From a virus: 20,079 nt of DNA. Where the stretch lies: positions 5,566 through 25,644 of IMG/VR virus record IMGVR_UViG_3300029448_000390, one strand, 5' to 3'. A program made the position numbers and the translations under genes. The notes below the pieces were generated by a model that did no database searches, was not told where the DNA came from, and saw only the letters and a list, made by a program, of their open reading frames with translations. This document shows, in pieces, positions 247-18,207 of this stretch; the first letter of the stretch is position 1, and every line of letters starts with the position of its first letter.

Positions 247-522
247 ATGGCTGACAAACAACCACCTAAGACAAAAAAATATTTCCGCTCCACAAAAAAA
301 GGAGCGGGAATGACAAAAGCTGGAGTTGCAAAATATCGTCGTGACAATCCTGGCTCTAAATTAAAAACAGCTGTAACTGGTAAAGTTAAACCAGGTTCAA
401 AAGCTGCCAAAAGAAGAAAGTCGTTCTGTGCTAGAAGTGCGGGTCAAATGAAAAAATTTCCTAAAGCTGCTGCAGATCCTAATTCGAGGCTAAGGCAGGC
501 AAGGAAGAGATGGAAATGTTAA
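247..522 (+). CDS. Small Lys/Arg-rich phage protein (91 aa), SFCARSxG type
   Basis: A strongly basic 91-aa protein. Lys and Arg are spread over its whole length, with few acidic residues. Two cysteines stand out: Cys61 in SFCARSAGQMKK and Cys91 as the very last residue, after RKRWK. I remember similar small proteins with an SFCAR core and a C-terminal WKC from marine phages, where they are hypothetical (possibly the DUF6321-type group; not verified). The ATG lies one base after the stop of the upstream structural gene, and no strong Shine-Dalgarno is visible, so coupled translation is likely. The charge suggests nucleic-acid binding or virion-internal packing. The paired cysteines could bind metal or form a disulfide. 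Neither is demonstrated by the sequence. Confidence 0.75.
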   Translation: MADKQPPKTKKYFRSTKKGAGMTKAGVAKYRRDNPGSKLKTAVTGKVKPGSKAAKRRKSFCARSAGQMKKFPKAAADPNSRLRQARKRWKC

Positions 523-1191
523 ATGGCAGCTGAAAAAATAGGAACAATAAGAGCAAGATTTTTAAAAAAGATTTTAGATAATTCTTTGAAGGCTGGAAAG
601 ATTTCCAAAAAAGAATATAATCAACTACGAAAAGAACAAGGACTTGACGGACTAAGAATAATTCAACTTGATTTATTTGATCCAGACAAGAAAAAACAAG
701 GAGGCCTTATGGAACAGGTAAACGGATTAAAAAAAATGGGCATGAAAAAAGGTGGAGCTATGAAAGAAGATCCATCTAAATTTAAAAAGAAAAGAAGACA
801 GTTAGAAGAACTTAGAAATAAACCTGGTAAGAAAAAGAAACTAACCCCGCAAGAACGTAAAGAAATGTTGGATAAAATTAATAAAGGCAGGGGTAAATTA
901 ACTAATCCTTTTATTAAATTAGATTCTATGGGCAGACCTATGATGGAAGCTAAAAAAGGTGGACTTGCTGAAGCAACTGCAAAACTAAAAGCACAAGGAC
1001 TTAAAAAAGGTGGTTTTCCTGATTTAAGTGGTGATGGAAAAGTTACAATGAAAGATATATTAATGGGCCGTGGAGTAGTTAAAAAACCAAAGAAAAAAGC
1101 TATGGGTGGATCTATGACTTTAGGTGGTAAAGGTGCCAGCAAAGTTGCAGGTAGATTAGCAAAAAGAGGGTATGGCGCTGCGAAAAAATGA
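523..1191 (+). CDS. Basic Lys/Gly-rich phage protein (222 aa) with one EF-hand-like loop
   Basis: Starts directly after the preceding stop. The N-terminal 55 residues look like an ordinary helical domain; the rest is a Lys-rich, low-complexity chain. Short KKGG or KxMGG elements recur near residues 60, 77, 146, 163 and 195, each followed by a mostly hydrophobic residue. Residues 167-178 (DLSGDGKVTMKD) match a calcium-binding EF-hand/dockerin loop: Asp1, Ser3, Asp5, Gly6, Val8, Thr9 and Asp12. Only one loop is present, so it is not a full EF-hand pair or dockerin. The gene ends with an ATGA overlap into the secreted protein gene at 1188. It is probably a virion or virion-assembly protein, by context; no enzyme motif was seen. 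Confidence 0.75.
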   Translation: MAAEKIGTIRARFLKKILDNSLKAGKISKKEYNQLRKEQGLDGLRIIQLDLFDPDKKKQGGLMEQVNGLKKMGMKKGGAMKEDPSKFKKKRRQLEELRNKPGKKKKLTPQERKEMLDKINKGRGKLTNPFIKLDSMGRPMMEAKKGGLAEATAKLKAQGLKKGGFPDLSGDGKVTMKDILMGRGVVKKPKKKAMGGSMTLGGKGASKVAGRLAKRGYGAAKK

Positions 1192-1745
1192 TCAGAGTTT
1201 TACTTGTAATTCTATTATTATCAGTATCAGTAAAAGCTTTAGCTGAAACAAATACTGTAAGTTCTACTGTTGTTACAAATAATACACCACCTACAGCCAA
1301 TTCACCCAGTGTTGTTGTAAACAATTCTGATGTTTGTAAGACGGCAGTAGCGGGCGCCGTTCAAACCCAGATCTTGGGTATTAGTAGCGGGATTACCGTC
1401 ACTGACGAAAACTGTGAAAGAATAAAATTAGCAAGATCCTTGTATGCTTCAGGAATGAAAGTGGCATCTGTGTCAATATTATGTCAAGATCCAAGAGTTT
1501 GGGATTCAATGGCCATGGCAGGTACCCCGTGCCCATACATGGGTTCTATTGGTGAAGATGCTGAAACTGGCTGGAAAGAAAACATGGATATGATTCCAGA
1601 AGGCAGTGTAGTTTATGCAAAATGGAATGATGAAATAAGTAAAATACAAGTTCTAGAAGGAGTAAAGAGTGATAAGAGTAGATTGGCAGAGTTTGTTCTC
1701 GCTGGTATTCTTTTGCACTGGGGCGTTTTTACCTTTCTCCCTTAG
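1188..1745 (+). CDS. Secreted four-cysteine phage protein (185 aa)
   Basis: The N-terminus is a textbook Sec signal peptide: MIR, a Leu/Val/Ile core (residues 4-15), then KALA followed by Glu20, a type I signal peptidase site. The mature part has a Ser/Thr/Asn-rich linker and then a compact domain with cysteines at 50, 76, 99 and 115, enough for two disulfides in the periplasm. Conserved-looking stretches are GISSGITVTDENCER and CQDPRVWDSM. The last 17 residues are strongly hydrophobic (from about AEFVLAGILLHWG), so the C-terminus may sit in a membrane. The start overlaps the upstream stop (ATGA). The last 77 nt are also read in another frame as the start of the next gene. I recall similar proteins from marine phages without assigned function. 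Confidence 0.8.
   Translation: MIRVLLVILLLSVSVKALAETNTVSSTVVTNNTPPTANSPSVVVNNSDVCKTAVAGAVQTQILGISSGITVTDENCERIKLARSLYASGMKVASVSILCQDPRVWDSMAMAGTPCPYMGSIGEDAETGWKENMDMIPEGSVVYAKWNDEISKIQVLEGVKSDKSRLAEFVLAGILLHWGVFTFLP
1656..1662 (+). promoter_or_regulatory. Ribosome binding site deciding the GTG start at 1669
   Basis: GAAGGAG lies inside the upstream gene, six bases before GTG 1669-1671. This strong Shine-Dalgarno at proper spacing supports initiation at the GTG, and therefore a true 77-nt overlap between two genes rather than a later start. The peptide that follows is a well-formed signal sequence, which supports the same start. Confidence 0.75.
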
Positions 1746-3468
1746 AGCTGAATGTCCAGTAACTGCTTCTGGAGTTTGTACTCCTGGAGTAGAAGAAACA
1801 ATTGTAATTACAGAAACAGAATCAATTGAGTATGAAGCTGATGGTCATACAGTAACTACAACTACAACGACAGATACCACAACAGTAACAGTAACCAACG
1901 AGGATTCTGGTGATATTCTTGACGGTAACAATAATTTTGTATCTTCTAGTAAAGAAGGAGATATGGATATTGATTGGGGTGGTCAAGGTCCTGCTAGTAT
2001 GCCTTCAGGTAATTCTTGTTATGAATTAGGCTCAGATAAATGTGCACAAATTACTGGATCAGGTAATTCAACGTCGACACAAGGTGTGAGTGGAATGGGA
2101 ACCACTTTTATACAGACTGTAGATATATCCTCACTTGATATAAAAAATGGAGGCAGAACAAACTATTCTATTAAAGTAGATAAAAGAGACGCAGATGATC
2201 GTATTTATATGCACATCACAGGAAAAAATGGCAATACAAGTGTCTTTTCAGGAACAGATATACTGTCAGAGTCAGGAGTAAGTAGTGGCTATCAAGAGTA
2301 TACAAATGGTTTTGATTTTGCAGGAACAATTACAAAATTAATTATAGAGGTAGGTGGACGTGATATATCTTTAGCGATTGGACCGCTCTTTGATGATGTA
2401 CGTGTAAACGTACTTTACAACGTCGTATCAACTATAATTACACAACAGATTACTACAATAGAAATGTGGATTGCATATGGTGGCAGCACAGAAACTGAAG
2501 TTATAGATATTGTAGAAAATATTTTTGAACACAATGATGTCGTAATTGATACACCACAAGATGATTTTTTCTTTGAACCAGAGTTTGATGAACCAGAAAT
2601 GGAGGTATCTTATGAAACTGTAGAGATGGAAATGGAGATGGATTATCAAATGGATTTTGAAATGGAAATGCCCGTTATGGAAGTAGAGTTTGAGATGCCA
2701 GAAATTACTGTTGAAGAAGTTAATGTAGCTTCAGTTGAGTTAGAGATGGAGATGGAACTAGAGATGGAAATAGAAATGCCTGATTTAGAATTACCTGAAC
2801 CAGATATGGAGATGCCAGAAATGGATATGGAAATGCCTGAACCAGATATGGAGATGCCAGAGACAGAGCCCGAAATGACAGAAGAGATTGAAGTTGCACC
2901 AGAACCAGATACAATGGAGCCTGAAGTAGAAGCTGAACCAGAAATGGAGGAGACAGCAAATGAAACAGAACCAGAGCCAGAATCTGAACCCGAAGTTGAG
3001 GCTGAGCCAGAACCCGTGGATGAAGCTTCTGAAGAAGATACTACAGAACCTGAAGCTGATACGGAAGAGGAGCCTGAGCCGAAAGAGAGCGTTTCAGAGG
3101 CTGAGGAGAATGAAGAGCAACCAGAAGATATGGAAGAACCAGAGGATAAGGGTAAAGCCGAAGAAAAACCTGTAAAAAAACCTGAGTCAAAAAAAGAAAA
3201 AGCAGCTAAAAAAATTGTAAAGAAGATGGGTGATAAAGGTAGATATGATTCATCAAATCAGTTAAAAACTTTAATTGTGATGCAAGTATTAGGTGACACA
3301 AAAACCTTTTTTGAATCACAAAAACAATTGGAGGATCGACTAGATTTCTTTACAGACTATATGATGCCAGATGCAGAAATACAAAACAACAATACCGCAC
3401 AGTGGTATTTATTTGGTGGAAGTGATGGTATGATGAATGATATGATAGATTTACAATGGCAGAAGTAG
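1669..3468 (+). CDS. Secreted phage protein with long acidic Glu/Met/Pro repeat (599 aa)
   Basis: The GTG start is fixed by an upstream GAAGGAG. Residues 1-27 form a Sec signal peptide (WQSLFSLVFFCTGAFLPFSLRA, written here only as a hydrophobic stretch, then Glu-Cys-Pro). Residues about 30-65 are Thr-rich, and about 90-270 form a beta-rich domain (GNSCYELGSDKCAQITGSGN and onward) that may bind or assemble extracellularly. Residues about 300-500 are extremely acidic, built from EMEMEM and PEPDMEMPE units, with a 26-nt perfect DNA repeat at 2794-2819 and 2836-2861. Then come a Lys-rich stretch (about 502-520) and a C-terminal domain with LKTLIVMQVLGDTKTFF and a Trp-containing tail. I remember that C-terminal domain from marine phages; its function is unknown. 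It overlaps the next gene by 13 nt. Confidence 0.8.
   Translation: MIRVDWQSLFSLVFFCTGAFLPFSLRAECPVTASGVCTPGVEETIVITETESIEYEADGHTVTTTTTTDTTTVTVTNEDSGDILDGNNNFVSSSKEGDMDIDWGGQGPASMPSGNSCYELGSDKCAQITGSGNSTSTQGVSGMGTTFIQTVDISSLDIKNGGRTNYSIKVDKRDADDRIYMHITGKNGNTSVFSGTDILSESGVSSGYQEYTNGFDFAGTITKLIIEVGGRDISLAIGPLFDDVRVNVLYNVVSTIITQQITTIEMWIAYGGSTETEVIDIVENIFEHNDVVIDTPQDDFFFEPEFDEPEMEVSYETVEMEMEMDYQMDFEMEMPVMEVEFEMPEITVEEVNVASVELEMEMELEMEIEMPDLELPEPDMEMPEMDMEMPEPDMEMPETEPEMTEEIEVAPEPDTMEPEVEAEPEMEETANETEPEPESEPEVEAEPEPVDEASEEDTTEPEADTEEEPEPKESVSEAEENEEQPEDMEEPEDKGKAEEKPVKKPESKKEKAAKKIVKKMGDKGRYDSSNQLKTLIVMQVLGDTKTFFESQKQLEDRLDFFTDYMMPDAEIQNNNTAQWYLFGGSDGMMNDMIDLQWQK
2590..3160 (+). repeat. Acidic low-complexity repeat tract within the 599-aa protein gene
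   Basis: The tract is a purine-rich run of GAAATGG/GAGATGG units that moves into GAACCAGA/GAGCCTGA units. It encodes first alternating Glu-Met and then Glu-Pro-Glu motifs. A perfect 26-nt direct repeat (2794-2819 and 2836-2861) lies 42 nt, or 14 codons, apart, so recent in-frame duplication is likely. The tract should be prone to length change between relatives. Confidence 0.85.
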
Positions 3469-4007
3469 AATTACCAGGCGGAATAAAATTTAAAGGTGGC
3501 AAGATTTTTGTCATACTTACAGCTTTGACTACAGCTGGTGGGGCACTATGGGGTGGTTTTGAATTTTACAAAGATTATCTCACAATGAAAGAACAGATAC
3601 AAGAATACGTAGCACCAGACCTATCTGGCTTTGATAAAGATATAGCTGTTATGAAAGAAGAAATGGACAGCAAGACTGATCTAATACAAACAGAAGTAGA
3701 AATGCTTATGTCTGAAATGGAAATGATGATGCAAGAAATTAGACTTGTGGCAGATGTAGCTAATGAATTAAAAAACGATTTACGACAAGATGTTAGAAGA
3801 GTAGAGAAAATTGTTAATGACGTAGAGCAACAAGTTAAGATTGACTCCAGAGAAAATTCTGCAGATCTAAAACATACAAGCAGTGAGATTGAGGCAAACA
3901 TGGAAGAATTAAAAGATGATCTGGAAGCAGCCATGATTGTGCTACAAGAAAAAATAGATAAGCAAATAAAATCTGCATTATCTAATCCTTTATCACAGAT
4001 GAAGTAA
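3456..4007 (+). CDS. Membrane-anchored coiled-coil phage protein (183 aa)
   Basis: Residues 1-15 are polar and basic (GIKFKGGK) and are followed by one hydrophobic segment at about 17-34 (IFVILTALTTAGGALWGG). Most of the rest, about 40-170, has the heptad-like charged/hydrophobic pattern of a long coiled coil, with a Met-rich part (EVEMLMSEMEMMMQEI). By the positive-inside rule the short N-terminus should be cytoplasmic and the coil periplasmic. It is the third consecutive envelope-directed gene and overlaps the 599-aa gene by 13 nt. Possible roles are a spanin-like or lysis-accessory protein, a membrane anchor for the two secreted neighbours, or a virion protein acting at entry. None is proven. 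No lipobox is present, so a classical o-spanin is unlikely. Confidence 0.75.
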   Translation: MAEVELPGGIKFKGGKIFVILTALTTAGGALWGGFEFYKDYLTMKEQIQEYVAPDLSGFDKDIAVMKEEMDSKTDLIQTEVEMLMSEMEMMMQEIRLVADVANELKNDLRQDVRRVEKIVNDVEQQVKIDSRENSADLKHTSSEIEANMEELKDDLEAAMIVLQEKIDKQIKSALSNPLSQMK

Positions 4008-4138
4008 TGGCCAAAACGCCTTCTAACGAATACTTTACACCAGTCAAAAAAAGGACTAGTATAGGTCGTTCTTCACGCACTAGGCCAAAGAATAAAAACA
4101 AAAGACGTCAATACGTTAAATACAGGGGGCAAGGGTGA
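4007..4138 (+). CDS. Tiny basic phage protein (43 aa), KRTSIGRS type
   Basis: A short open frame fills the otherwise empty gap between two genes. ATG 4007 shares its A with the preceding stop (TAATG), and the TGA at 4136-4138 overlaps the GTG start of the next gene (GTGA). The 43 residues include KKRTSIGRSSRTRPKNKNKR and end in KYRGQG. I recall this KRTSIG...KNK...KYRGQG pattern in other marine phages, which argues that the frame is real despite its size. The peptide is almost purely cationic and disordered-looking. A role in DNA or RNA binding, or as packed virion cargo, is inference only. Confidence 0.65.
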   Translation: MAKTPSNEYFTPVKKRTSIGRSSRTRPKNKNKRRQYVKYRGQG

Positions 4139-4425
4139 CTAAATTATGTCCAAGAGGTAAAGCTGCAGCTAAGCGTAAATTTAAGGTTTATCCTAGCGCA
4201 TATGCTAATGCCTATGCTTCTAGAATATGTGCTGGTAAAATAAAAGACCCAAGTGGTAAAAAAAGAAAAGATTTTAAAGGTCCAAAAAGAGCTATGGGCG
4301 GAGTTATAGATTTTAATAAACTTTCACAGCAACGTAAAAAAGTATCTGCCATGAACAAAGGTGGAATGGCAAGAGCATGTGGCGCTGTAATGGAAAGCAA
4401 AAGAAAAATAACTAAGTTTAGTTAA
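4135..4425 (+). CDS. Small basic phage protein (96 aa), LCPRGKAAAKRKF type
   Basis: It begins with GTG in a GTGA overlap with the 43-aa gene; a GGGGG run about six bases upstream can serve as the ribosome binding site. The N-terminal half (LCPRGKAAAKRKFKVYPSAY, then ANAYASRICAG) looks like a conserved small fold with Cys5 and Cys32. The C-terminal half is Lys-rich with KRAMGGVI (residues 51-58) and NKGGMA (74-79), motifs shared with neighbouring basic proteins, plus Cys82. I remember the N-terminal half from many marine phage genomes, always without assigned function. It ends in TAATG, coupling it to the next gene. Confidence 0.75.
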   Translation: MTKLCPRGKAAAKRKFKVYPSAYANAYASRICAGKIKDPSGKKRKDFKGPKRAMGGVIDFNKLSQQRKKVSAMNKGGMARACGAVMESKRKITKFS

Positions 4426-4757
4426 TGGCTAAAAGTGGTCTTGATAAATGGTTTGCTCAAAAATGGGTAGACATAGGCAGCAAGAAAAAAGATGGATCTT
4501 TTTCTAAATGTGGAAGATCAAAACAAAAAGCAGATGCTAAACGTAAATATCCTAAATGTGTTCCTCTTGCAAAAGCAAGACGAATGAGTGAAGGACAACG
4601 AAAATCTGCAGTACAAAGAAAAAGAAGTAAAGCACAAGGTGTTGGTGGTAAACCAACAAATGTTAAAACATTTGCAAAAGCTTCTGGTGGATTAATATCT
4701 AATAGCAGAAGAGCTGGAGCAGCTGTAAGAGGTTTTGATTTCAAAGGTGTCTTTTAA
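4425..4757 (+). CDS. Small basic phage protein (110 aa), possible DUF5872-like
   Basis: Start and previous stop overlap (TAATG) without a clear Shine-Dalgarno, so translation probably depends on the upstream gene. The N-terminal region WFAQKWVDIGSKKKDGSF leads into SKCGRSK (Cys29) and YPKCVPLAKARRM (Cys45). This Cys-pair/Lys-rich layout resembles the small phage and cyanobacterial DUF5872 family as I remember it; not verified. The C-terminal part has FAKASGGLIS, another copy of the basic-GG-hydrophobic element, and a Gly/Arg-rich tail. A structural metal site at the two cysteines or a nucleic-acid role is possible. The function is unknown. Confidence 0.75.
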   Translation: MAKSGLDKWFAQKWVDIGSKKKDGSFSKCGRSKQKADAKRKYPKCVPLAKARRMSEGQRKSAVQRKRSKAQGVGGKPTNVKTFAKASGGLISNSRRAGAAVRGFDFKGVF

Positions 4758-4912
4758 TGCCTTTAAATCAAAAAGGCAGAAAGATAATGAAATCAATGAA
4801 AGGTACCTACGGTAAAGATGCTAAAGCTGTTTTCTATGCATCAAAAAACAAAGGAGTAATAAAAGGTGTTGAAAAGAAAAGATCCAAAAAAGGGAACAGG
4901 AAAAAAACCTAA
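4757..4912 (+). CDS. Tiny basic phage protein (51 aa), MPLNQKGRKIMKSM type
   Basis: This open frame starts at ATG 4757 in a TAATG overlap and stops at TAA 4910-4912. AAGGTG eight bases upstream can act as a ribosome binding site. The sequence includes MPLNQKGRKIMKSMKGTYGK, then AVFYASKNKGVIKGVEK, and finishes in a Lys/Arg run. I recall near-identical short proteins from marine phages, often with the FYASxNKGxIKGV segment, so I accept it as a gene. Its last 47 nt overlap the next gene in another frame. That part is Lys-rich in both readings, as A-rich DNA would be. Function unknown; it is strongly cationic. Confidence 0.65.
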   Translation: MPLNQKGRKIMKSMKGTYGKDAKAVFYASKNKGVIKGVEKKRSKKGNRKKT

Positions 4913-5162
4913 AGGTAGTGGAAGACGTCTCTATACTGACGAAAACCCTCGTGATACTGTGGGTATTAAGTTTGCTACTCCTAGTGACGCCAGGTCAACA
5001 GTTGCGAAAGTTAAAAAAATTAATAAACCGTTTGCTAGAAAAATACAAATCCTAACAGTGGGGGAGCAAAGAGCTAAAGTTATGGGTAAGTCAGAAGCAG
5101 CAAGTATATTTAGAAAGGGTAAAGATGTCATTAGAAGAGGAAGTAAAAAAAGACGTACGTAG
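4866..5162 (+). CDS. Small basic phage protein (98 aa), KKGTGKKPKGSGRRLYTDE type
   Basis: The GTG start at 4866 follows AAAGGAG at about 4850, so spacing is slightly long but workable. The protein opens with a basic Gly/Lys segment (GTGKKPKGSGRRLYTDENP). Next comes a folded-looking part (TVGIKFATPSDARSTVAKVK, then INKPFARKIQILTVGEQRAK), and it ends in a basic tail. I recall the ATPxDARxTVAKVKKINKP...QILTVGEQRAKVMGK stretch as conserved in marine phages with no assigned function. The stop lies 38 nt inside the following gene, a long overlap by phage standards. The later ATG-initiated neighbour has its own AAAGGG site. Confidence 0.7.
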   Translation: MLKRKDPKKGTGKKPKGSGRRLYTDENPRDTVGIKFATPSDARSTVAKVKKINKPFARKIQILTVGEQRAKVMGKSEAASIFRKGKDVIRRGSKKRRT

Positions 5163-5703
5163 ATGGTCTGAAATTTATTTAGAAGTTCCTAATGTTCATT
5201 TAGGAGGTTATCCAGCATGTCCTTTTGCAAAAAAAACTTGGACAGATAATAAGGTTGTCGTAGGAGTAAAGAGAAAACACAAATGGTATAAATCAGAATT
5301 AAATGGTTATTTGAAGCACCTTGATTTTAGTGTTCATGAGCTATTGATATTCTGTGACCCATACTTTAATTACAGTCTGGAAGATTTTCAAACGGCGATA
5401 GATGAGTACAATTATTGGTATAATAAAAAGGACATATTTTTTATGGGTTTTCATCCCAGCAACCCAGCAAACGAGGAGGAGCAAGAGTTCCTCGTCACTC
5501 CAAATGGGAGCACCCCGATTATAGAAGACAGCCTCAACTACTCTATGATGCTGGCACAAAAGTTCTCGCAATTACAAGAAGCTTCTGATAAACTACACAA
5601 AGCTGGTTACTATAAGAAGTGGCCAAAAGGGTATTATCGAGACGTCGTGGTATCTAGGGCTAAAACATATAAACGAATATTCGGAGGTCGACATGATGGG
5701 TAA
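5125..5703 (+). CDS. Hypothetical phage protein with CPFAKK motif (192 aa)
   Basis: Unlike its neighbours this is a normal globular protein, balanced in charge and rich in Tyr and Trp. Residues 12-40 (RRWSEIYLEVPNVHLGG, then YPACPFAKKTW) recall the DUF1415-type arrangement, in which a helical W..E segment precedes an LCPFA motif. The match is from memory and weak. Other visible parts are LLIFCDPYFNY, a repeated Tyr/Trp stretch YNYWYNKKDIFF, and a helical C-terminus. It starts 38 nt inside the preceding gene with AAAGGG upstream, and its end overlaps the next start. It is the only non-basic gene in this part of the cluster; no function is assigned. Confidence 0.7.
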   Translation: MSLEEEVKKDVRRWSEIYLEVPNVHLGGYPACPFAKKTWTDNKVVVGVKRKHKWYKSELNGYLKHLDFSVHELLIFCDPYFNYSLEDFQTAIDEYNYWYNKKDIFFMGFHPSNPANEEEQEFLVTPNGSTPIIEDSLNYSMMLAQKFSQLQEASDKLHKAGYYKKWPKGYYRDVVVSRAKTYKRIFGGRHDG

Positions 5704-6088
5704 AAAGAAAATGGCCATGAAACGTGGTGGCAAAGTTAAAGGTAAGAAGAAAGCTGTAAAAAAACGTGGCGGCGGCATGATGGAAAAAGCTATGGGTGGT
5801 GCAATATCACCTCGTAAGAAAATGGCTATGGGCATGATGGGCGGCGGCATGATGGCTAAAAAGAAAATGGCTGGTGGCGGAATGGCTGGTAAGAAAAAAC
5901 AAGCTATGAAAAAAGGCGGTGTTCCAACAGCTAAACGCAAAAAATCACCACCAGGTATGTCTGATAAAGCAAAATCATTTTTTGCAAAAGTTAGAATGGC
6001 AAGAACTATAAAACCTTCTGGTAGAATTAATACAGATGACATCAAAAGAGCTGGCAAGCTTATTAATAAAAGAGCAAAAGGTAAGTAA
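5693..6088 (+). CDS. Lys/Met/Gly-rich basic phage protein (131 aa)
   Basis: Residues 1-85 are almost only Lys, Met, Gly and Ala (KKKMAMKRGGKVKGKKKAV, MGMMGGGMMAKKKMAGGGMA). They contain repeated RGG, KAMGG and KKGG elements and in-frame DNA repeats, including a 13-nt repeat at 5771-5783 and 5843-5855. The C-terminal 45 residues look more ordinary (SDKAKSFFAKVRMARTIK, then DIKRAGKLINKRAKGK) and may be a helical, DNA-contacting end. A strong GGAGG lies about five bases before the ATG. The gene ends in TAATG with the head-tail gene. The composition suggests a disordered polycation that could neutralise DNA or line the capsid; this is inferred, not shown. Confidence 0.75.
   Translation: MMGKKKMAMKRGGKVKGKKKAVKKRGGGMMEKAMGGAISPRKKMAMGMMGGGMMAKKKMAGGGMAGKKKQAMKKGGVPTAKRKKSPPGMSDKAKSFFAKVRMARTIKPSGRINTDDIKRAGKLINKRAKGK
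5771..5855 (+). repeat. In-frame direct repeat pair in the Lys/Met/Gly-rich gene
   Basis: The 13-mer GGCGGCATGATGG occurs at 5771-5783 and again at 5843-5855, exactly 72 nt (24 codons) apart, each encoding Gly-Gly-Met-Met in the same frame. Similar GGC/ATG-rich units lie between them, so the low-complexity region probably grew by in-frame duplication. Confidence 0.75.
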
Positions 6089-11344: not shown

Positions 11345-11524
11345 ATGGAAAATAAAGACTTAAATAAAGCCATTGCCTACCTTGCAGATAAGGTGAGCAA
11401 ATATCACGAAAGACTACTAGCAGCGGAGAGAGATTTAGAACGTCATCTTAAAGATGAAAAGAAACACTGTGATTCCAATTGTGATTGTAAAAAACCAGAT
11501 ATAGTAAAAGCTTTATCTACTTAG
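11345..11524 (+). CDS. Small charged protein with Cys-His cluster (59 aa)
   Basis: CAGGAGACAAAC precedes ATG 11345; the frame ends at TAG 11522-11524. Residues 1-40 form a strongly charged helix (NKAIAYLADKVSKYHERLLA, then AERDLERHLKDEKK). HCDSNCDC (residues 41-48) places His41, Cys42, Cys46 and Cys48 close together, enough for a zinc or other metal site, or a redox pair. The tail is KKPDIVKALS. I do not recognise the family. The gene stands alone between two possible regulatory sequences, with its own candidate promoter. Its 3' end overlaps the convergent minus-strand gene by 8 bp, so transcripts from both sides must run into each other. Confidence 0.7.
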   Translation: MENKDLNKAIAYLADKVSKYHERLLAAERDLERHLKDEKKHCDSNCDCKKPDIVKALST

Positions 11525-11768
11525 GAGTAGATCCCAACATATCTTTTAAAGATGGTGCAAATACTTTTACGTCTCTTTGAATTTTTTCTGCAGTTGTAGA
11601 AGTGTTTGGATCGTCTATATCTGCTTGCATGGCAGCTTCTGATTCATACTCTTGACCTGTATCTTTGTTAGTTAAAGTAGTTTCTGTTTTAACTTTGTAT
11701 CTAGGAATTACTCTTCCATCTTCGAGAGTCATTGTTCCTATTTTTTCTGCGTTTTCAACTATCGGCAT
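11517..11768 (-). CDS. Small virion-type protein (83 aa)
   Basis: Last gene of the minus-strand unit. GGAGA lies about eight bases before the ATG. The sequence GTMTLEDGRVIPRYKVKTE is followed by an acidic stretch (GQEYESEAAMQADIDDPNTS) and TAEKIQRDVKVFAPSL. I recall the EADIDDPxTxTxxxDIxRDVxVFAPSLG pattern from cyanophages and other marine phages, where it is annotated only as a hypothetical or virion protein. It overlaps the end of the oxygenase gene upstream of it by 14 nt. Its stop lies inside the 3' end of the convergent 59-aa gene. No catalytic residues are apparent. Confidence 0.7.
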   Translation of the reverse strand: MPIVENAEKIGTMTLEDGRVIPRYKVKTETTLTNKDTGQEYESEAAMQADIDDPNTSTTAEKIQRDVKVFAPSLKDMLGSTPK

Positions 11769-12348
11769 TTTCGTGTCTCCAATTAATATTAAAACTTAAA
11801 ATAACTCTATCTTGATTAGAATTATTAAGTTGTACTTCATGTTGTAACCATGATGGAAAAAAAATCAAGCTATTCTCTTTTGGTTCCCAAGAAACGCTGT
11901 GTGCTAAGTGTATAGAAGCGTCTTTTTTCTTTGGTGGCGATAAGACCTCTGCTTGTGGTTTTGGCTCCAAAAACACTAAATTTCCGCTTTTAGAGGGCAC
12001 TTTTAAGTAGTAAACACCAGATATATAATTATAGGGATGAGTATGCACATTGTTTCTAGATCCAGGTGGATTTATCATACCCCAAAGGCCAGTCATTTCA
12101 GGACAATATTCATCTTGTACATCAAGATTATTAAAACATTCTTTTGCTTTTAATAAAATGTCAGCTACTGTGCTTTTAAATTCTAAGTCTTTGTAGAGTT
12201 CATCGTGACTATGCCATCCACCAACATTTGATCTAGGCATACCCTTTTCGTCTTTTTGTTTTATTTCATAAAGTCTGTCAATTAAATGACTATGACCTTT
12301 AATTTCTGTCATCATGACAGGTGTAATAAATAACGATTGTAATTCCAT
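11755..12348 (-). CDS. 2OG-Fe(II) oxygenase-like protein, TIGR02466 type (197 aa)
   Basis: The double-stranded beta-helix signature is clear. NNVHTHPYNYISGVYYLKVP (residues 99-118) supplies His102 and His104, SGNLVFLEP forms the next strands, and FFPSWLQHEV (163-172) supplies the distal His170. Arg181 in DRVILSFNINW would bind the 2-oxoglutarate carboxylate. This is the TIGR02466/2OG-FeII_Oxy_5 arrangement, in which the usual HxD is often HxH. Such enzymes couple 2-oxoglutarate decarboxylation to hydroxylation of a substrate; here the substrate is unknown. TAAGGAG seven bases before the ATG is a strong ribosome binding site. It lies between two virion-type genes. Confidence 0.85.
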   Translation of the reverse strand: MELQSLFITPVMMTEIKGHSHLIDRLYEIKQKDEKGMPRSNVGGWHSHDELYKDLEFKSTVADILLKAKECFNNLDVQDEYCPEMTGLWGMINPPGSRNNVHTHPYNYISGVYYLKVPSKSGNLVFLEPKPQAEVLSPPKKKDASIHLAHSVSWEPKENSLIFFPSWLQHEVQLNNSNQDRVILSFNINWRHENADS

Positions 12349-12361
12349 TCTTTCTCCTTAT

Positions 12362-12724
12362 TTAAAGTTGACCTTTTGTAACCTCCATAAAACTAACGAT
12401 TATGTGTACTTGATTAGCTGCGTTTGCCTGTGCTTTTAATACGTCAGACTCTTGCAATACTAAAGGTTGTGTTAATAATTCTGTTGTTGTGTTAGTTGCT
12501 ACACTTTTTTGCTTAAATATTTCAAATGTTGCAGATGATCTTACAACTTCAATATCAACTAAAGTTGTTGAACCTGAGTCATTACAAATTAAAATTGATT
12601 TTACTACGTCTGTAGTAGGAGGAACTGGTGGTGTTGCACCAGGATTAGCAGTTGGAACTGTTAATACAGTTGTTAAATCTGTTGATGTAATATCAACCAT
12701 TGCACTTTTAAATGTATTAGCCAA
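12362..12724 (-). CDS. Virion structural-type protein (120 aa), TTG start
   Basis: Starts with TTG in TTGGCTAATACA, overlapping the end of the 55-aa gene by 8 nt, with no strong Shine-Dalgarno; coupled translation is likely. The protein is beta-rich: FKSAMVDITSTDLTTVLTVP, a Pro-rich loop (ANPGATPPVPPTTD), then VVKSILICNDSGSTTLVDIE and a long strand region ending in IIVSFMEVTKGQL. I recall this VKxIxxxNxxxSxxTxVxV layout from a marine phage virion protein that is small and abundant. No motif for catalysis. It sits among genes for virion parts and oxygenases. Confidence 0.65.
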   Translation of the reverse strand: MANTFKSAMVDITSTDLTTVLTVPTANPGATPPVPPTTDVVKSILICNDSGSTTLVDIEVVRSSATFEIFKQKSVATNTTTELLTQPLVLQESDVLKAQANAANQVHIIVSFMEVTKGQL

Positions 12725-12884
12725 GGAAAAATGTCTCCGACTCTGATTCTTCTTTTAAATCTTGTTGAAAGTTTGTGTTTAATAAAAAAACTATTTGATC
12801 TAGTAATCTTATCATTTGATCAAATTGAGCAGCATTATATTCTGGTGTTGCATTTGGTAATCGAGTTATATTTATTTTAGCCAT
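12717..12884 (-). CDS. Small virion-type protein (55 aa), ITRLPNATPEYN type
   Basis: This frame fills the gap between two larger minus-strand genes. The ATG is at 12884-12882 and the TAA at 12719-12717. The peptide has ITRLPNATPEYNAAQFDQ, a helix (MIRLLDQIVFLLNTNF) and an acidic end (QQDLKEESESETFFLG). I recall this pattern, xLPxATPEYxxxQxxxLxRxLxxxxxxLN, from small proteins of cyanophages and other marine phages, often next to the 120-aa protein. The start lies one base past the end of the oxygenase gene above it, and the stop overlaps the next TTG start. Real gene likely; role probably structural. Confidence 0.7.
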   Translation of the reverse strand: MAKINITRLPNATPEYNAAQFDQMIRLLDQIVFLLNTNFQQDLKEESESETFFLG

Positions 12885-12885
12885 A

Positions 12886-13416
12886 CTATTGTTTATTATA
12901 AAAAAGACTTAAAGTCATTCTAAATTTAGGACCTACTTTTGATTGTGGACGTATTGTATGTGGTATTTGACCATCAAATAAAATAATTCTACCTGGCACA
13001 AAAGCACTAGCAAATATAATCTTATTAAAATCAAATTTGTCAAAAAACAAAGTCTCTCCGTACCACCCATCTCTCCAATTCAAATTCAGGTAAACTAACA
13101 CAACTTGTGAACCTCTATGGGAGTGTATGTGATGAACATCCTCTGATTTTACAAGGTTCAAAACTGCAGTGCTAAGATTTTCGTTAGTAAACCAACTTGT
13201 TTCTTTAATACAAGGTTTAATAAACTCTAGTATTTTAGTTCTGTTTAAATCCTCCAAGGACCATTCAGAATGTAAGTTAGGATCTGTAATGTGTTCACCT
13301 GAAGCAAAATCATTCCATCCTATTTTAAAATTACAACGACTAGCGTATGTATATAATACATCTCTAAATTCTAAAGGAATTATATTATCGTAAAATTTTA
13401 TATTATCTTCTGCCAT
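12886..13416 (-). CDS. 2OG-Fe(II) oxygenase-like protein (176 aa), unusual metal site
   Basis: The beta-helix fold is indicated by HHIHSHRGSQVVLVYLNLNW (residues 95-114), GWYGETLFFD (117-126), GRIILFDGQIPHTIRP (142-157) and FRMTLSLFY (165-173). The distal His153 and Arg166 fit the Fe and 2-oxoglutarate ligands of prolyl-4-hydroxylase-like phage enzymes. At the first site the family normally has HxD; here I see HIHSHRG, so the metal must be held by His-x-His or the enzyme may be altered. The ATG is 14 nt inside the end of the nozzle-like gene. Substrate is unknown. It is a different subfamily from the two TIGR02466-like proteins of this unit. Confidence 0.75.
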   Translation of the reverse strand: MAEDNIKFYDNIIPLEFRDVLYTYASRCNFKIGWNDFASGEHITDPNLHSEWSLEDLNRTKILEFIKPCIKETSWFTNENLSTAVLNLVKSEDVHHIHSHRGSQVVLVYLNLNWRDGWYGETLFFDKFDFNKIIFASAFVPGRIILFDGQIPHTIRPQSKVGPKFRMTLSLFYNKQ

Positions 13417-15247
13417 CAGGCCTTATTTGAATTTTTTGTGAGCCTAATCGCCAAGGTGTATCGTTTACTGTGCTAGTTTGATATTTAATTTTTACAGCTC
13501 TACCTCTTCCTCTTACGTTTATTTTTTCAGTGGTGCTAGTAATTGATCCAGTGGTTGTAACATTTGAGGATGACTGAGGATACTGTTCTAAAGTTAGTGT
13601 AGCTGTCATGGTATTTGTTAAATTATCAAAGTCAGGCACTAATTTACTTACTGACATAAGTGAATCACCGTCAGCTATTTCAACTGATCCAGTTTCTAAA
13701 AATGCGGATATGGCGGTGCCATCAGCTTGATTGTTACCTGTCTCATGTTCATACACAAAAGAAGCACCTGCAGTTAATCCTAATATAGTAGAAACATTTG
13801 CTGTAGTTGAGCTACTAAATTCTGTTGCTATTGGTTTTTCGTATACGTATGCACCTAACCAGGTAGTTCTACCTAAAGAATTAGTATACCACGTTCCTTC
13901 AAGATAATTGTATGCCACAGATCTATCTATTTGAGATGCGTCTGCTGATGGGTAATACCAAATTATTTCGTTGTAAGCAGTGTTTAAACCAACAGCTATG
14001 TCGTTTTTATTTGTATAGCTAAGATCATCGAAAACAAAGTCTTGAACAGAACAAGGCATTTTTTTAACTACACCATCAAATAAATAAAAAGCATTATCTG
14101 ACATCCAGTATGCTACACCATTAACTTCTATCGCTGCATGTTGAGCAATTAAACCTGCATTAGCTCCAAGTTGTCTTAGTCCAAATGTAAAAGGTGTTCC
14201 AACAAATTGAATACCGTGAAGTGAAGTATCAGTCCAAACAAGTATTTGTCCTGTTGATTTAACTGCGCCAATAATTCTTGAACCGTCTGTAATTCTAAGA
14301 GATCCAGCTTCGTTAGTAGCCACTGGTGTGTAATCTGTTGCATCTTCTCTATCTGAAAATCTAAATAGTAAATCGTCTTGTGTTGCTGTATCACCTATTG
14401 TTGTTTCAGTTCCAAATATCATTAAGTGTCTAGTATCAGTAGATACTATGCTAAATCTTGATGCTGTTGGAGCGTTTGATAAAGCAGTTGCTCTAGCAGA
14501 CAAACCTCCTGATGTATCCCATATAAACGTTCCACCATCTAAAACTGTGGCTATTAAGTCTTCTCCAAAATTATCTAAAGACCAGTTTCTACCAGCCACT
14601 ACAACATTAGAAGATGATCTAGCAGTATCCCAAGTGCTTGCTCCCCACGTTTCTGTACCCCAACCATAACCATATGTGGATGTAGCAGGGCCTACACTAA
14701 TTTGATATTTTGCATTACCTGATCCTCCTCCTCCAGAGGTAGAACCAGAAGCAGTACTAGTATGTGTAACGGTATAAGCACTTGCACTTGTTACTGATGT
14801 AACTTCAAACTCTTTATTCATGTCCAAACCATCAATCGTTGAAAAAGAATCAAAGGTAACAAAATCACCAACACTCGCACCGTGAGCTGCGTCCGCTACA
14901 GATACTGTAGTTGTCCCATTGGTTGTAAATGGATTAGATAAACTTTCGGTTTGTCTTAAAGGTGTTATGTCATATAGTTTACCCTCAGAGTAAATATATA
15001 ATTTTCTATCAGTACCTAAAGCTAAATATCTGGTGCCGTCTAAACCAATCCAACTGTGGGTATCTCTTACAACTCCGACCACTGTTTTATTAGGATTTGG
15101 TAAAAATGCCCATCCACCCCATCTCTCAGGTTTTCCGTAGTGAAATCTTACAAAGTCAGAGTCAATATATTTACGTTGATCTCCTGCAGAATAAGCTGAA
15201 TCTTGCTTGTCAACACCTGGTTTAAATTTTAAATCAACTAATTGCAT
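13403..15247 (-). CDS. Tail nozzle / P22 gp10-like stabilization protein (614 aa)
   Basis: The largest gene of the minus-strand unit. It opens with KFKPGVDKQDSAYSAGDQ and KYIDSDFVRFHYGKPERWGG, a start I recall from marine podovirus virion proteins. Blade-like beta repeats follow: LGTDRKLYIYSEGKLYDITP, GTFIWDTSGG, RFSIVSTDTRHLMIFG, LVWTDTSLHGIQFVG, and YWMSDNAFYLFDGVVKK. A Gly/Ser-rich loop (GSTSGGGGSG) sits near residue 170. Beta-propeller-like proteins of this size act as tail nozzles or packaged-DNA stabilisers (P22 gp10 and similar). The start ATG has only a weak ribosome binding site. Position opposite in strand to the adaptor gene is notable. Confidence 0.75.
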   Translation of the reverse strand: MQLVDLKFKPGVDKQDSAYSAGDQRKYIDSDFVRFHYGKPERWGGWAFLPNPNKTVVGVVRDTHSWIGLDGTRYLALGTDRKLYIYSEGKLYDITPLRQTESLSNPFTTNGTTTVSVADAAHGASVGDFVTFDSFSTIDGLDMNKEFEVTSVTSASAYTVTHTSTASGSTSGGGGSGNAKYQISVGPATSTYGYGWGTETWGASTWDTARSSSNVVVAGRNWSLDNFGEDLIATVLDGGTFIWDTSGGLSARATALSNAPTASRFSIVSTDTRHLMIFGTETTIGDTATQDDLLFRFSDREDATDYTPVATNEAGSLRITDGSRIIGAVKSTGQILVWTDTSLHGIQFVGTPFTFGLRQLGANAGLIAQHAAIEVNGVAYWMSDNAFYLFDGVVKKMPCSVQDFVFDDLSYTNKNDIAVGLNTAYNEIIWYYPSADASQIDRSVAYNYLEGTWYTNSLGRTTWLGAYVYEKPIATEFSSSTTANVSTILGLTAGASFVYEHETGNNQADGTAISAFLETGSVEIADGDSLMSVSKLVPDFDNLTNTMTATLTLEQYPQSSSNVTTTGSITSTTEKINVRGRGRAVKIKYQTSTVNDTPWRLGSQKIQIRPDGRR

Positions 15248-15261
15248 GACTAATTAATAAA

Positions 15262-16062
15262 TTACTTCTTGTCTTGTGGCAAGAATTGAGTACCAACATT
15301 GCCTTGAAATGCAAAATTACCGTAATGCGTCATACCGCTTGTAATATCAGCATATATTTTTCCACCCATATTTTGCCATAATCGACAAAAAGCATAGTCT
15401 TCTGATAAGTATCTCTTTGTTTCAGGCTCTACCATGGTATCAAAAAAAGTATAATTCCAATTGGATGTTTCATGATAATCAAATTCTTTATCGTGTGGTG
15501 CGTTTATATGCTGATCTGGTGTAAATTGTTTGTCGGGATAATAATAAGCCATCTGTTCAAAAACACGTTTTTTAATTAACATAAATCCTGTTGCCCCATC
15601 CATAACTTCAATAAAACCTTTTGTCATTTCTATTTTATTAGGATCTTTTACATTCAAATTGTACTGTAAAGAGGTAGCCAACAATTCATCTTCCGATATT
15701 TCTGGGTCATCAATCACTTTGTTTTTTACTTTTGTCCAATCTATTGTTTTACGTGGATACACGCCCGTTACGACATCTTTGTTAAAGTCAACCATTCTTA
15801 AAACTGATTCAGGGTTAAAAGCTAAATCTGCATCTATAAATAAAAGGTGAGTGTAATCACCATCCATAAATAATTGCACTAAAGTATTTCTAGCTCTTGT
15901 AATTAAGGACTCATTACCAATTGTTGCAAACTGTAATTCAATTTGTTTAGATGCACATAGTGCTACTAACTGCATGCAGCTTTTAAAATAGCTTGATGTT
16001 ATCATGCCACCATAACATGGTGTACCGACAAATAGCTTTATTTGTATATTTTCTTTTTCCAA
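15262..16062 (-). CDS. GT-A fold glycosyltransferase-like protein (266 aa)
   Basis: Residues 9-19 (KLFVGTPCYGG) form the first nucleotide-binding strand. LITRARNTLVQLFM lies at 53-66, and HLLFIDADLAF (72-82) holds the DxD metal/nucleotide-sugar motif at Asp77-Asp79. GVYPRK (100-105) and the late SEDYAFCRLWQNMGG (220-234), with a likely acidic catalytic residue, complete a GT-A fold. I remember this protein type from many marine phages. It would transfer a sugar from a nucleotide donor; the acceptor could be a virion protein, phage DNA or host glycan and cannot be told here. Start is TTG, overlapping the previous gene by 25 nt, with no clear ribosome binding site. Confidence 0.8.
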   Translation of the reverse strand: MEKENIQIKLFVGTPCYGGMITSSYFKSCMQLVALCASKQIELQFATIGNESLITRARNTLVQLFMDGDYTHLLFIDADLAFNPESVLRMVDFNKDVVTGVYPRKTIDWTKVKNKVIDDPEISEDELLATSLQYNLNVKDPNKIEMTKGFIEVMDGATGFMLIKKRVFEQMAYYYPDKQFTPDQHINAPHDKEFDYHETSNWNYTFFDTMVEPETKRYLSEDYAFCRLWQNMGGKIYADITSGMTHYGNFAFQGNVGTQFLPQDKK

Positions 16063-16778
16063 ATTAATTTTTTATAAGCATCTTTTAAATAAGAAAAGAA
16101 ATCATATTTAAACCTTTCAATTTTTTTATCTGAAAAAGGTTTTTTTTGTGTTACTTTCATTTTCCAATTATCTCTTTTAAAAGGAAATACATTAGCTACT
16201 AGAAATCCTTTTGATATAATTTTATTTGGATTTAAAGTTTCATCCCAATCTTGCAAGTAAAAAGTAAAGTTTACAGGTTGACTATATTCATCTGTGTCAA
16301 CAATACCTGTAACGAGTCTTACATCTGTCTTCTCTCTGTTAAAAGGACCTGTAAAAAGACAACTATAGCCTGGTGGTGTTTTTATTGTCCATGGGTTTAA
16401 AAATTTAAAAGGTATTGGTATTTCATTTGGATGCAACATGTTATCTGGCACTTGAAATTTATAATGACCCAATGCCCCAATATTAGCTTCAGGATATGCG
16501 CCTTTTACATCATTAAAAATATTTCCTGCTTGAATATTAATTTCTTTAACACCAGTATTTTCATTTATTTTTTTTGTAAACATAATATCAAATGGCAATT
16601 TTATAACGTAACCACAAGTCATAGCATCTAAAAAAGGCACACATTTTTTAACCGTGGGATCATTAAGATCATTGTTCATATGTGTTTCAAATTTTTTTAA
16701 CCAATCAGGTGTAGCTTTACTAAGTGGGACTGGTTTATCAATTAAGTCTGCGTATTGACTAAAAAATTCTATTTTCAA
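16038..16778 (-). CDS. Uncharacterised phage protein, possible DUF6065-like (246 aa)
   Basis: Starts at TTG in a TTGA overlap with the preceding stop, with AGAGAAG nearby as ribosome binding site. The conserved-looking core is KKCVPFLDAMTCGYVIKLPF, then a beta-rich region with LLHPNEIPIPFKFLNPWTIK as a loose pattern, followed by TPPGYSCLFTGPFN. The end is basic (KKLIWKKKIYK). The C-P-F-L-D-A-M-T-x-GY start followed by NPWTIKTPPGYSxLFTxPxN recalls DUF6065-like proteins; I cannot confirm this. In other marine phages it accompanies glycosyltransferase and oxygenase genes, as here. No metal-binding triad is evident. Confidence 0.65.
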   Translation of the reverse strand: MKIEFFSQYADLIDKPVPLSKATPDWLKKFETHMNNDLNDPTVKKCVPFLDAMTCGYVIKLPFDIMFTKKINENTGVKEINIQAGNIFNDVKGAYPEANIGALGHYKFQVPDNMLHPNEIPIPFKFLNPWTIKTPPGYSCLFTGPFNREKTDVRLVTGIVDTDEYSQPVNFTFYLQDWDETLNPNKIISKGFLVANVFPFKRDNWKMKVTQKKPFSDKKIERFKYDFFSYLKDAYKKLIWKKKIYK

Positions 16779-17287
16779 AATTCTTCTCTATAAAAAATAT
16801 TTAAAGTGTATCTTTCTGAACTTTCACCAAAAGATTGTAAGTCTGAGTGCGGTATTTCAGCTCCGTTAAAAAACAAAGCTCTATTTTCTACAAAACCTAT
16901 GTGTGAAGATAGTGAATTATTATGCATAAAACCTGTGCCATTATTAAGAAGAGGTTCTCCTTTTGCAAAAAATAAAAAATTAGCTGCATTATCTTTTGCA
17001 ATGTCTCTATGAAACATAGCCTCTTTATCATTAATTCTTTTATGTGCAGATACACTTATAGGAACTAAATTTCTATGAGGAAAAAAATACCCTTTAATTA
17101 ATTTTAATAATGGATCATCGTGAAAACTTTTTGGAAAAGTGTGACGCTTACCAATAATTCTCCCTGTTCCGTCTTTTGATTCTCCGTATTTTAGTGTTAA
17201 TAAAGTTTCTTGTAAAGAATGTAATGTTTTTGCCTCTAAAAAATTATCTAAGTACATTACAAATTTAGTCTGTCTAGTGTGTTGCAT
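16775..17287 (-). CDS. 2OG-Fe(II) oxygenase-like protein (170 aa), intact HxD
   Basis: Residues 91-107 (MFHRDIAKDNAANFLFF) give His93-x-Asp95. The later GFVENRALFFNGAEIPHSDL (131-150) gives His147, and ERYTLNIFY (158-166) gives Arg159, so a full 2-His-1-carboxylate iron site and a 2-oxoglutarate anchor are visible. The N-terminal half (VMYLDNFLEAKTLHSLQETL) is the usual helical lead-in. The protein is shorter than most stand-alone hydroxylases but within the range of phage members. The start overlaps the 90-aa gene by 14 nt, and its stop overlaps the next TTG start. Its substrate is unknown; neighbours suggest virion or surface modification. Confidence 0.75.
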   Translation of the reverse strand: MQHTRQTKFVMYLDNFLEAKTLHSLQETLLTLKYGESKDGTGRIIGKRHTFPKSFHDDPLLKLIKGYFFPHRNLVPISVSAHKRINDKEAMFHRDIAKDNAANFLFFAKGEPLLNNGTGFMHNNSLSSHIGFVENRALFFNGAEIPHSDLQSFGESSERYTLNIFYREEF

Positions 17288-17546
17288 ATTCTACCTGTAA
17301 ATATTCTATTTTTCTAACCCACCCTCTTGGTATGGCTATTGCTCCCCCTCCATGATTATCATCTTTATCTGTGCACCATGAACGCATAATAACTATTTTG
17401 TCATCATTGTTTACGACCATGTATCCTACTTCTTGGCACACGGCCAACGGAGCAGATAAGATTTCTTTTACATCTAACCATCCTGTTTCCGTATCACGTG
17501 CATCTTGCCACGTTATTCTCACCATAGGTATTTTATTTATATCCAT
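17274..17546 (-). CDS. Small conserved phage protein (90 aa), MVRITWQDA type
   Basis: The protein has a compact alpha/beta look: MVRITWQDARDTETGWLD, VKEILSAPLAVCQEVGYMVV, NDDKIVIMRSWCTDKDDN, and IAIPRGWVRKIEYLQ. I recall the W-x-D-A...GW-x-x...TVGYxVxxxxxKIxxxxS...IPxGxVxxIxxL layout as common in marine phages and related bacterial genes, with no known function. AAGGATGG marks the start region, and the gene overlaps the end of the oxygenase upstream of it by 14 nt. It is the only clearly non-oxygenase gene at the head of this unit. No metal ligands or signal sequence stand out. Confidence 0.7.
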   Translation of the reverse strand: MDINKIPMVRITWQDARDTETGWLDVKEILSAPLAVCQEVGYMVVNNDDKIVIMRSWCTDKDDNHGGGAIAIPRGWVRKIEYLQVEYATH

Positions 17547-18207
17547 CCTTATTAAACTCTTTTTTCTTTTTTAAATGTAAATTAAAAGACACAGATCTTC
17601 TTTCTTCATTAGGTGTTCTAAATGGATAAACACCGTGAGAAAGCCATGCAGGAAAAAGATAAATAGCTCCAACCTCTGGAGTCGCTTGATGTTTGTGACC
17701 ACTAAAATGTGCTGCTTGACCAGCATGCCAAACTATATCACCGACACAAGGATAATGATCTTCTTTTGCATATTCTTCTTTTAAACTAGGAGGCACACGT
17801 AGATAAATTACACCCGATAATTCACCTTGATGAATATGAAAAGGGTTGAAGTCTCCCGCCCATTGGCTCACGGACCACATAGATTCAATAACCATAGCAC
17901 CAACATAGTCGGGTGATATTGTATCTGACGCTGGTGGAATAGATATGTATTGTTTTACGATTTCACCTAATGCTTTTACCACAGGTGCAAAAGTTTCACT
18001 TCCTAAAAACTCATCAGGGTAACGCACTTCTTTTTGAACATTGCCAGCCAAATGCATAGAGTGGTCATACTTTTTATATAATTCATCATTATCAAATAAT
18101 TCAGTTGCCTTATCATCTAATATTTTAATCATATATTCAGGCAATTTACCTTGAAATATAGTAGGGCCAAAAGGTCTAATTGCGTGAAATTCTACTTCAG
18201 TCGACAT
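17533..18207 (-). CDS. 2OG-Fe(II) oxygenase-like protein, TIGR02466 type (224 aa)
   Basis: The first gene of the minus-strand unit, with AAGGAAG before the ATG. Core elements are WAGDFNPFHIHQGELSGVIY (residues 116-135) with His124 and His126, then the loop GDIVW...HFSGHKHQATPEVG, and AIYLFPAWLSHGVYPF (181-196) with His191. Arg203 or Arg204 before SVSFNL would bind 2-oxoglutarate. The HxH pair, SGVIYL strand and FPAWLSH match TIGR02466-type proteins, as does the 197-aa protein at 11755-12348. The pair differs enough elsewhere that they may act on different targets. It lies beside the divergent promoter region and probably leads transcription of the whole unit. Confidence 0.85.
   Translation of the reverse strand: MSTEVEFHAIRPFGPTIFQGKLPEYMIKILDDKATELFDNDELYKKYDHSMHLAGNVQKEVRYPDEFLGSETFAPVVKALGEIVKQYISIPPASDTISPDYVGAMVIESMWSVSQWAGDFNPFHIHQGELSGVIYLRVPPSLKEEYAKEDHYPCVGDIVWHAGQAAHFSGHKHQATPEVGAIYLFPAWLSHGVYPFRTPNEERRSVSFNLHLKKKKEFNKDGYK

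Follow-up and report, generated by a model that had tools for sequence, protein, structure and literature searches.

A conserved, mobile three-gene module encoding envelope-directed proteins in phages of SAR11 and Roseobacter

Three Consecutive Phage Genes Form a Conserved Module

The window analyzed here, a stretch of 20,079 nucleotides of viral DNA (positions 5566-25644 of a record of 25,644 bases), harbors three consecutive genes, ORF1 to ORF3 (the trio), which constitute a conserved, mobile module. The three genes co-occur in relatives, the first two encode export signals as judged by sequence rules, part of the trios lie beside lysis genes, the set has been exchanged between phages, and ORF2 is predicted to contain a beta-sandwich of the sugar-binding type. 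We give an even chance to the interpretation that the trio forms a lysis-stage module at the host envelope, namely a trans-envelope component that supplements the lysis cassette and is not a spanin. The features of the trio are as follows:

1188..1745, plus strand: ORF1, 185 aa
ORF1 residues about 1-20: export signal
ORF1 residues 21-47: T/N-rich linker
ORF1 residues about 48-130: four-cysteine domain
ORF1 residues about 165-185: C-terminal hydrophobic segment (clade A)
1669..3468, plus strand: ORF2, 599 aa, GTG start
ORF2 residues about 1-27: export signal
1903..2418, plus strand: sugar-binding-type beta-sandwich of ORF2, residues 79-250 (Foldseek E 1e-4)
2569..3183, plus strand: acidic E/P/M-rich low-complexity stretch of ORF2, residues 301-505
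ORF2 residues 506-599: conserved C-terminal helical domain
3456..4007, plus strand: ORF3, 183 aa

All three ORFs are present where a sequence-only reading of the window had placed them. ORF1 and ORF2 overlap by 77 nt and ORF2 and ORF3 by 13 nt, and a ribosome-binding sequence, AGAAGGAG, is located upstream of the GTG start of ORF2. Promoter and terminator scans gave counts at chance level. In the window, the trio is flanked by small basic proteins, an SU10-type adaptor and other virion genes, whereby the small proteins around it (window 247-1191 and 4135-6088) form a run of lysine/glycine-rich basic proteins with repeated KKGG-like motifs. A Phage_lysozyme gene is located at 115-555 of the record, outside the window and about 6 kb upstream of ORF1. 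Window positions 11517-18207 comprise a minus-strand gene block within an otherwise plus-strand region, several genes of which we take to resemble 2OG-Fe(II) oxygenases.

Loci were gathered by searching viral contigs with each window ORF and with ORF1 of four relatives, and the query that fetched a locus defined its clade label. Clade A includes the window and HTVC115P, clade B the phages HTVC033P, HTVC202P, Baldr, and HTVC023P, clade C the Roseobacter phages CRP-207 and CRP-810, clade D the Mediterranean phage S28-C10, and clade E the T4-like phage Mosig. The trio was found in all five of these divergent clades, which cover podo-, sipho-, and T4-like phages of SAR11 and Roseobacter. A lack of co-occurrence in relatives had been named beforehand as one finding that would refute the proposal of a joint device; the opposite was clearly seen. 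An ORF3-type gene was found within 3.5 kb downstream of ORF1 in 266 of the 266 testable loci, a redundant set in which some clade A loci had been fetched via ORF2 or ORF3. Testable were loci with a closed ORF1 and at least 2.6 kb of downstream sequence, which left out 94 of 366 loci as too short and six because of an open ORF1. The trio is strictly contiguous in 235 of the 266 loci; the lower figure is mostly due to clade B (17 of 46), in which extra genes are located in between. In clades A and C, gene overlaps occur in nearly all of the non-redundant trios (39 and 40 of 41 in clade A, 27 and 28 of 28 in clade C), which suggests that translation of the trio genes is coupled. The non-redundant set comprises 152 trios and was thinned by ORF1 similarity only. 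In the isolate HTVC115P, the homologous trio corresponds to the hypothetical genes gp54-gp53-gp49, whereby, in contrast to the window, three extra small genes are located between the ORF2 and ORF3 homologues. Two small families, phrog_20984 and phrog_24646 (L002:13391-13958, L447:38973-39547), accompany the trio in several pelagiphages, where they are alternatively placed between tail and terminase genes.

The Trio Proteins Carry Export Signals, a Predicted Sugar-Binding-Type Domain, and a Putative Membrane-Anchored Rod

Signal sequences were judged by simple rules, a loose and a stricter one, in place of SignalP. By the loose rule, an N-terminal hydrophobic export segment is present in 342 of 359 ORF1 homologues and 269 of 278 ORF2 homologues. 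The stricter rule was passed by 120 of 152 ORF1 and 118 of 152 ORF2 non-redundant homologues compared to 44 of 744 other plus-strand ORFs of at least 150 aa, which served as a control; as this rule is blind to the difference between a cleaved signal and an anchor, 95 of 152 ORF3s pass it as well. By these rules, the Sec-type signal sequences that had been proposed for the first two proteins are real features of the family and are conserved across homologues.

The four cysteines of ORF1 that had been pointed out previously (Cys 50, 76, 99, and 115) are invariant or at least 90% conserved in an alignment of 65 sequences. A C-terminal hydrophobic segment, missed in the earlier reading, is found in 106 of 106 clade A ORF1 proteins and in 0 of 253 from the other clades. 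ORF1 of the window matches the profile of phrog_20531, a family without assigned function, with an E of 3.2e-12 over about 86 of 314 positions. Its AF2 model consists of a well-modelled helical core (pLDDT about 90 for residues 80-150) plus a beta hairpin. A fold search against solved structures gave no match at E<=0.001 (best Z 3.9), and the viral library yielded nine matches at this threshold, all of them uncharacterised or unnamed viral proteins. The window ORF1 is present in 11 records of a phage collection of 50,697 records, with sources that are all marine or spring-water, and a scan of the genome collection with CRP-207 ORF1 found no relative among bacterial genomes. A remote ORF1 relative with an export signal (HMM E 6e-12) is encoded on the minus strand of the Achromobacter phage phiAxp-2 (L449:44598-45155); its neighbour likewise carries an export-like signal, and no ORF3 match was obtained.

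For ORF2, a repeat of about 200 residues had been described. The region exists (residues 301-505), but instead of a single repeat it constitutes an acidic stretch of low complexity: it consists of 37% E, 14% P, and 12% M, has a net charge of -82, and shows short-period repeats of 6-42 nt at the DNA level. Overlooked in that description was the folded domain in front of it. Residues 79-250 are predicted to form a beta-sandwich, as is required of a carbohydrate-binding module, and the best matches among solved folds (VIA Z 10-11 at best, over 133-152 residues) include the Fbs1 sugar-binding domain, CBM16, and phage tailspike domains. The sandwich resembles those of CBM16, CBM61, CBM4, and the Fbs1 sugar-binding domain with a Z of about 9-11, but is only 8-13% identical to them, and the confidence of the model is moderate (pLDDT about 48-87 by block). 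None of the three window proteins reaches a Pfam cut-off, and ORF2 has no Pfam match. Of all parts of ORF2, the sandwich shows the highest conservation within clade A, with a mean pairwise identity of 81%, compared to 57% and many gaps for the acidic stretch; this conservation would suit a conserved target. In clade C, ORF2 is a different, shorter protein, and blastp with ORF2 of CRP-207 gave no match to the ORF2 of the other seven phages.

The third gene had been described as encoding a protein with a single membrane segment and a putative long coiled coil. A hydrophobic segment is indeed present within the first 45 residues of 290 of 302 ORF3 homologues. Behind this segment, a long helical region and a near-invariant C-terminal NPL motif are common to all clades. 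Where a locus offered several ORF3 matches, the one ending with NPL was preferred, and one of the NPL counts was drawn from loci selected for having NPL. In clade B, 46 of 67 loci with an ORF3 match have one that ends with NPL; of the other 21, six were inspected, and all of these were located on contigs that end no more than 1.6 kb from ORF1. The ORF3 matches of clade B may include a second membrane-coil family (phrog_20984-like). A tblastn search with ORF3 of Mosig matched only itself, and one clade C ORF3 shows a weak tape-measure match (E 0.0015). Two genes annotated as "lysozyme" in CRP-207 and CRP-810 (L193:3292-3873 and L195:7162-7584) are ORF3 homologues by sequence and not lysozymes; their products consist of a membrane segment and a helical rod that ends with NPL.

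The Module Is Exchanged Between Unrelated Phages

The terminases of HTVC033P and Baldr share 26% identity over 96 aa, whereas their trio proteins are 77% (ORF1), 53% (ORF2), and 57% (ORF3) identical. Similarly, HTVC033P and HTVC202P have terminases with 24% identity over 100 aa and share 65, 48, and 40% identity in ORF1, ORF2, and ORF3, respectively. The reverse is seen with HTVC033P and CRP-207, where the terminases are 52% alike and ORF2 and ORF3 gave no blastp match. This mismatch in both directions indicates that the module moves independently of the packaging genes, and the high identity of the trio in phages with nearly unrelated terminases indicates that it follows the host rather than the virion.

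These data bear on the possibility that the phage particle contains the trio proteins and that they function while the DNA enters the cell. The position of the trio among virion genes in the window would fit with such a device. However, ORF1 and ORF2 carry export signals across clades, the module is common to podo-, sipho-, and T4-like phages with unrelated terminases, and neither ORF2 nor ORF3 of the window matches a structural protein family. Thus, of the roles suggested earlier for an envelope-directed trio, entry is disfavored by the export signals together with the exchange between unrelated virion types, and a virion or entry device appears highly improbable to us; the envelope direction itself stands, and the option of a role in lysis finds strong support in the genomic neighborhood described below.

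Lysis Genes Are Found Next to Part of the Trios

A holin-like or endolysin gene is located within 1.5 kb of 34 out of 101 non-redundant trios (those with 1.5 kb on both sides), compared to three of 147 control placements in the same loci; the other 67 trios have none within this distance. By clade, such a gene was found for 4 of 21 trios in A, 17 of 21 in B, 4 of 22 in C, 2 of 2 in D, and 7 of 35 in E. The placement is also regular: among the 152 trios, all 19 three-TM holin-like matches within 8 kb lie at most 1 kb upstream of ORF1 (clades B to E), and 14 of 16 M15 peptidase matches within 8 kb lie at most 1 kb downstream of ORF3. The lysozyme, amidase, and M15 seeds have Pfam matches and the holin-like gene of Mosig passes the GTA_holin_3TM cut-off, whereas for some holin-like seeds there was no match among the named holin families. 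In part of clade A, a lysozyme gene follows 214-493 nt after ORF3; in the main group of the window, the nearest lysozyme gene is about 5-6 kb away, upstream of ORF1. In S28-C10 (Autographiviridae), a holin-like gene and ORF1-2-3 are located between the tail fibre and the large terminase genes, which is the interval where T7, with the gene order fibre-17.5-18-Rz-Rz1-19, keeps 17.5, 18, Rz, and Rz1. The "virion operon" in which the trio had been placed thus describes the window, but is not a rule, as the trio elsewhere abuts holin-like, endolysin, spanin, or terminase genes.

Proximity to holin-like genes would also suit a role in lysis timing or inhibition, in which ORF1 and ORF2, once exported, would monitor the envelope or detect a second phage and pass a signal to the holin via the ORF3 anchor. 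The disulfide-type periplasmic domain of ORF1 could serve this role, and the complete spanin pairs of clade E (see below) leave room for a regulator. Nevertheless, no holin-like gene was found next to the trio in the main clade of the window and no antiholin family was matched in Pfam or PHROGs, and we consider a timing function fairly unlikely.

The position beside lysis genes rather than early genes also speaks against superinfection exclusion or receptor shielding, whereby ORF2 as an exported lectin would cover host glycans and block adsorption of other phages, or of progeny to the host or debris. The sugar-binding-type fold of ORF2 and the exchange of the module among phages that share a host group but are otherwise unrelated would be in line with such a function. 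In addition, according to the accessible text of PMC3909814, among the genes that could be identified in metaviromic islands, those for proteins annotated like ORF2 were the most common, and the proteins were interpreted as serving host recognition; the export signals call this assignment of ORF2-type proteins to tails or host recognition into question. Shielding would leave the obligatory membrane-anchored ORF3 unexplained, and in clade A no part of ORF2 varies less than the sandwich. Overall, we regard this explanation as unlikely.

The Trio Resembles Spanins in Position but Not in Composition

With two-component spanins (lambda Rz/Rz1; T7 18.5/18.7), the trio shares the position in the lysis cassette and the overlapping genes, and ORF3, with an inner-spanin-like topology by hydropathy, is a putative counterpart of their inner-membrane protein with a periplasmic helical rod. 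The trio differs in that it comprises three proteins and no lipoprotein in the window, in the glycan-binding-type domain and acidic arm of ORF2, and in its coexistence with Rz-like pairs in clade E. There, Rz-like candidates were found within 2.5 kb upstream of the trio (i-type in 20, o-type in 23, and an abutting pair in 19 of 46), and two sampled pairs match the PHROG "Rz-like spanin" (E 1e-10 to 4e-8). At L387:7163-7946 and similar clade E loci from relatives of T4-like pelagiphages, the overlapping Rz-like pair is located directly upstream of the trio.

None of the window ORFs contains a lipobox, nor does any of 106 ORF1 proteins from clade A, so that ORF1, despite its C-terminal hydrophobic segment, does not have the makeup of a u-spanin, which combines an N-terminal lipobox with a C-terminal TM. 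In clade B, 7 of 33 ORF1 proteins look lipidated. In clade C, a small lipoprotein gene overlaps the 5' end of ORF1 in another frame in 27 of 28 trios (for example, L193:1725-1940 and L357:7809-8030), and at two sampled loci a holin-like gene and a small membrane-coil gene precede it. The core of this lipoprotein resembles ORF1 of other clades (profile-profile 95%, E 2.5e-8, over a short stretch of 38 columns), and the clade C ORF1 HMM found none of the 27 small lipoproteins. Possibly, the small lipoprotein is an outer-membrane form of the ORF1 domain.

These findings rule out the trio as a universal replacement of spanins, given the Rz-like pairs of clade E and the lipoproteins of clade C; it can be a neighbor in the lysis cassette with or without spanins. 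They also bear on the idea that the trio is itself a diverged spanin system with ORF3 as the inner partner and ORF1 or ORF2 as an outer partner without lipid. Apart from the topology of ORF3, this would be in accordance with the lipoprotein scan, which recovers T7 18.7, lambda Rz1, and CsgG, and found no lipoprotein ORF in any frame of HTVC202P and antisense matches only in Baldr and S28-C10. Rz (PF03245) was not found over the cut-off in 60 trio-bearing records, which is weak evidence since the same model misses inner-spanin candidates of clade E that PHROGs matches. In PHROGs, ORF2 and ORF3 gave no match at all and ORF1 matched only phrog_20531, so that no Rz family was matched by sequence. 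With window ORFs that lack a lipobox and Rz-like pairs adjoining the trio in clade E, a diverged spanin system seems very unlikely to us. It is the missing lipoprotein and the coexistence with spanins in one clade that lead us to describe the favored lysis-stage envelope module as something other than a spanin.

A Putative Mechanism for a Proposed Lysis-Stage Module

For the trio we infer late expression, complex formation, disulfides, a glycan target, and an action at the outer membrane. The three proteins would be made late in infection, with ORF1 and ORF2 exported by Sec and ORF3 anchored in the inner membrane so that its rod extends into the periplasm. ORF1 would constitute a disulfide-stabilised domain, and ORF2 might bind an envelope glycan, either murein or a conserved part of LPS, and carry a long flexible acidic arm. 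Together, they could form a complex reaching across the periplasm, which, after the action of holin and endolysin, may help with the disruption or release of the outer membrane. In some phages it would act next to spanins; in others, no spanins can be recognised. A bolder proposal, about which we are doubtful, is that the trio represents an undescribed fourth functional class of phage lysis-cassette gene, that is, a three-protein, non-lipoprotein, glycan-tethered, periplasm-spanning, outer-membrane-opening machine of SAR11 and Roseobacter phages that is mobile as a unit and replaces spanins in some lineages.

According to the accessible text of a spanin survey from 2018, 91 of 677 genomes were spanin-less, 20 of which were from phages of marine cyanobacteria, and the survey leaves open how such phages disrupt the outer membrane (PMC6139136). 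The trio presents a concrete, cloneable candidate for outer-membrane breakage by marine phages without recognisable spanins. As SAR11 is described as being among the most abundant bacteria (PMC10504331, accessible text), a conserved lysis-stage module in its phages would bear on how SAR11 cells are opened. No description of the trio was found in the literature searched, which covered few subscription papers, and the accessible lysis and spanin text of the isolate papers PMC9038755 and PMC7892664 and of PMC9238414 contains nothing on it.

An exported multi-gene module that is exchanged between SAR11 podo- and myophages has been reported with the curli/T8SS genes of pelagiphages (accessible text of PMC9599517 and PMC9004378). 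The trio is likewise exported, multi-gene, and exchanged, but consists of different genes, and CsgG was found in none of 35 trio-bearing records searched. The T4-like HTVC008M encodes curli CsgF/CsgG (L450:7562-9557), and four tblastn queries did not find ORF1 in it; in Mosig, the trio is present and CsgG is absent. It may be that the curli and trio modules alternate.
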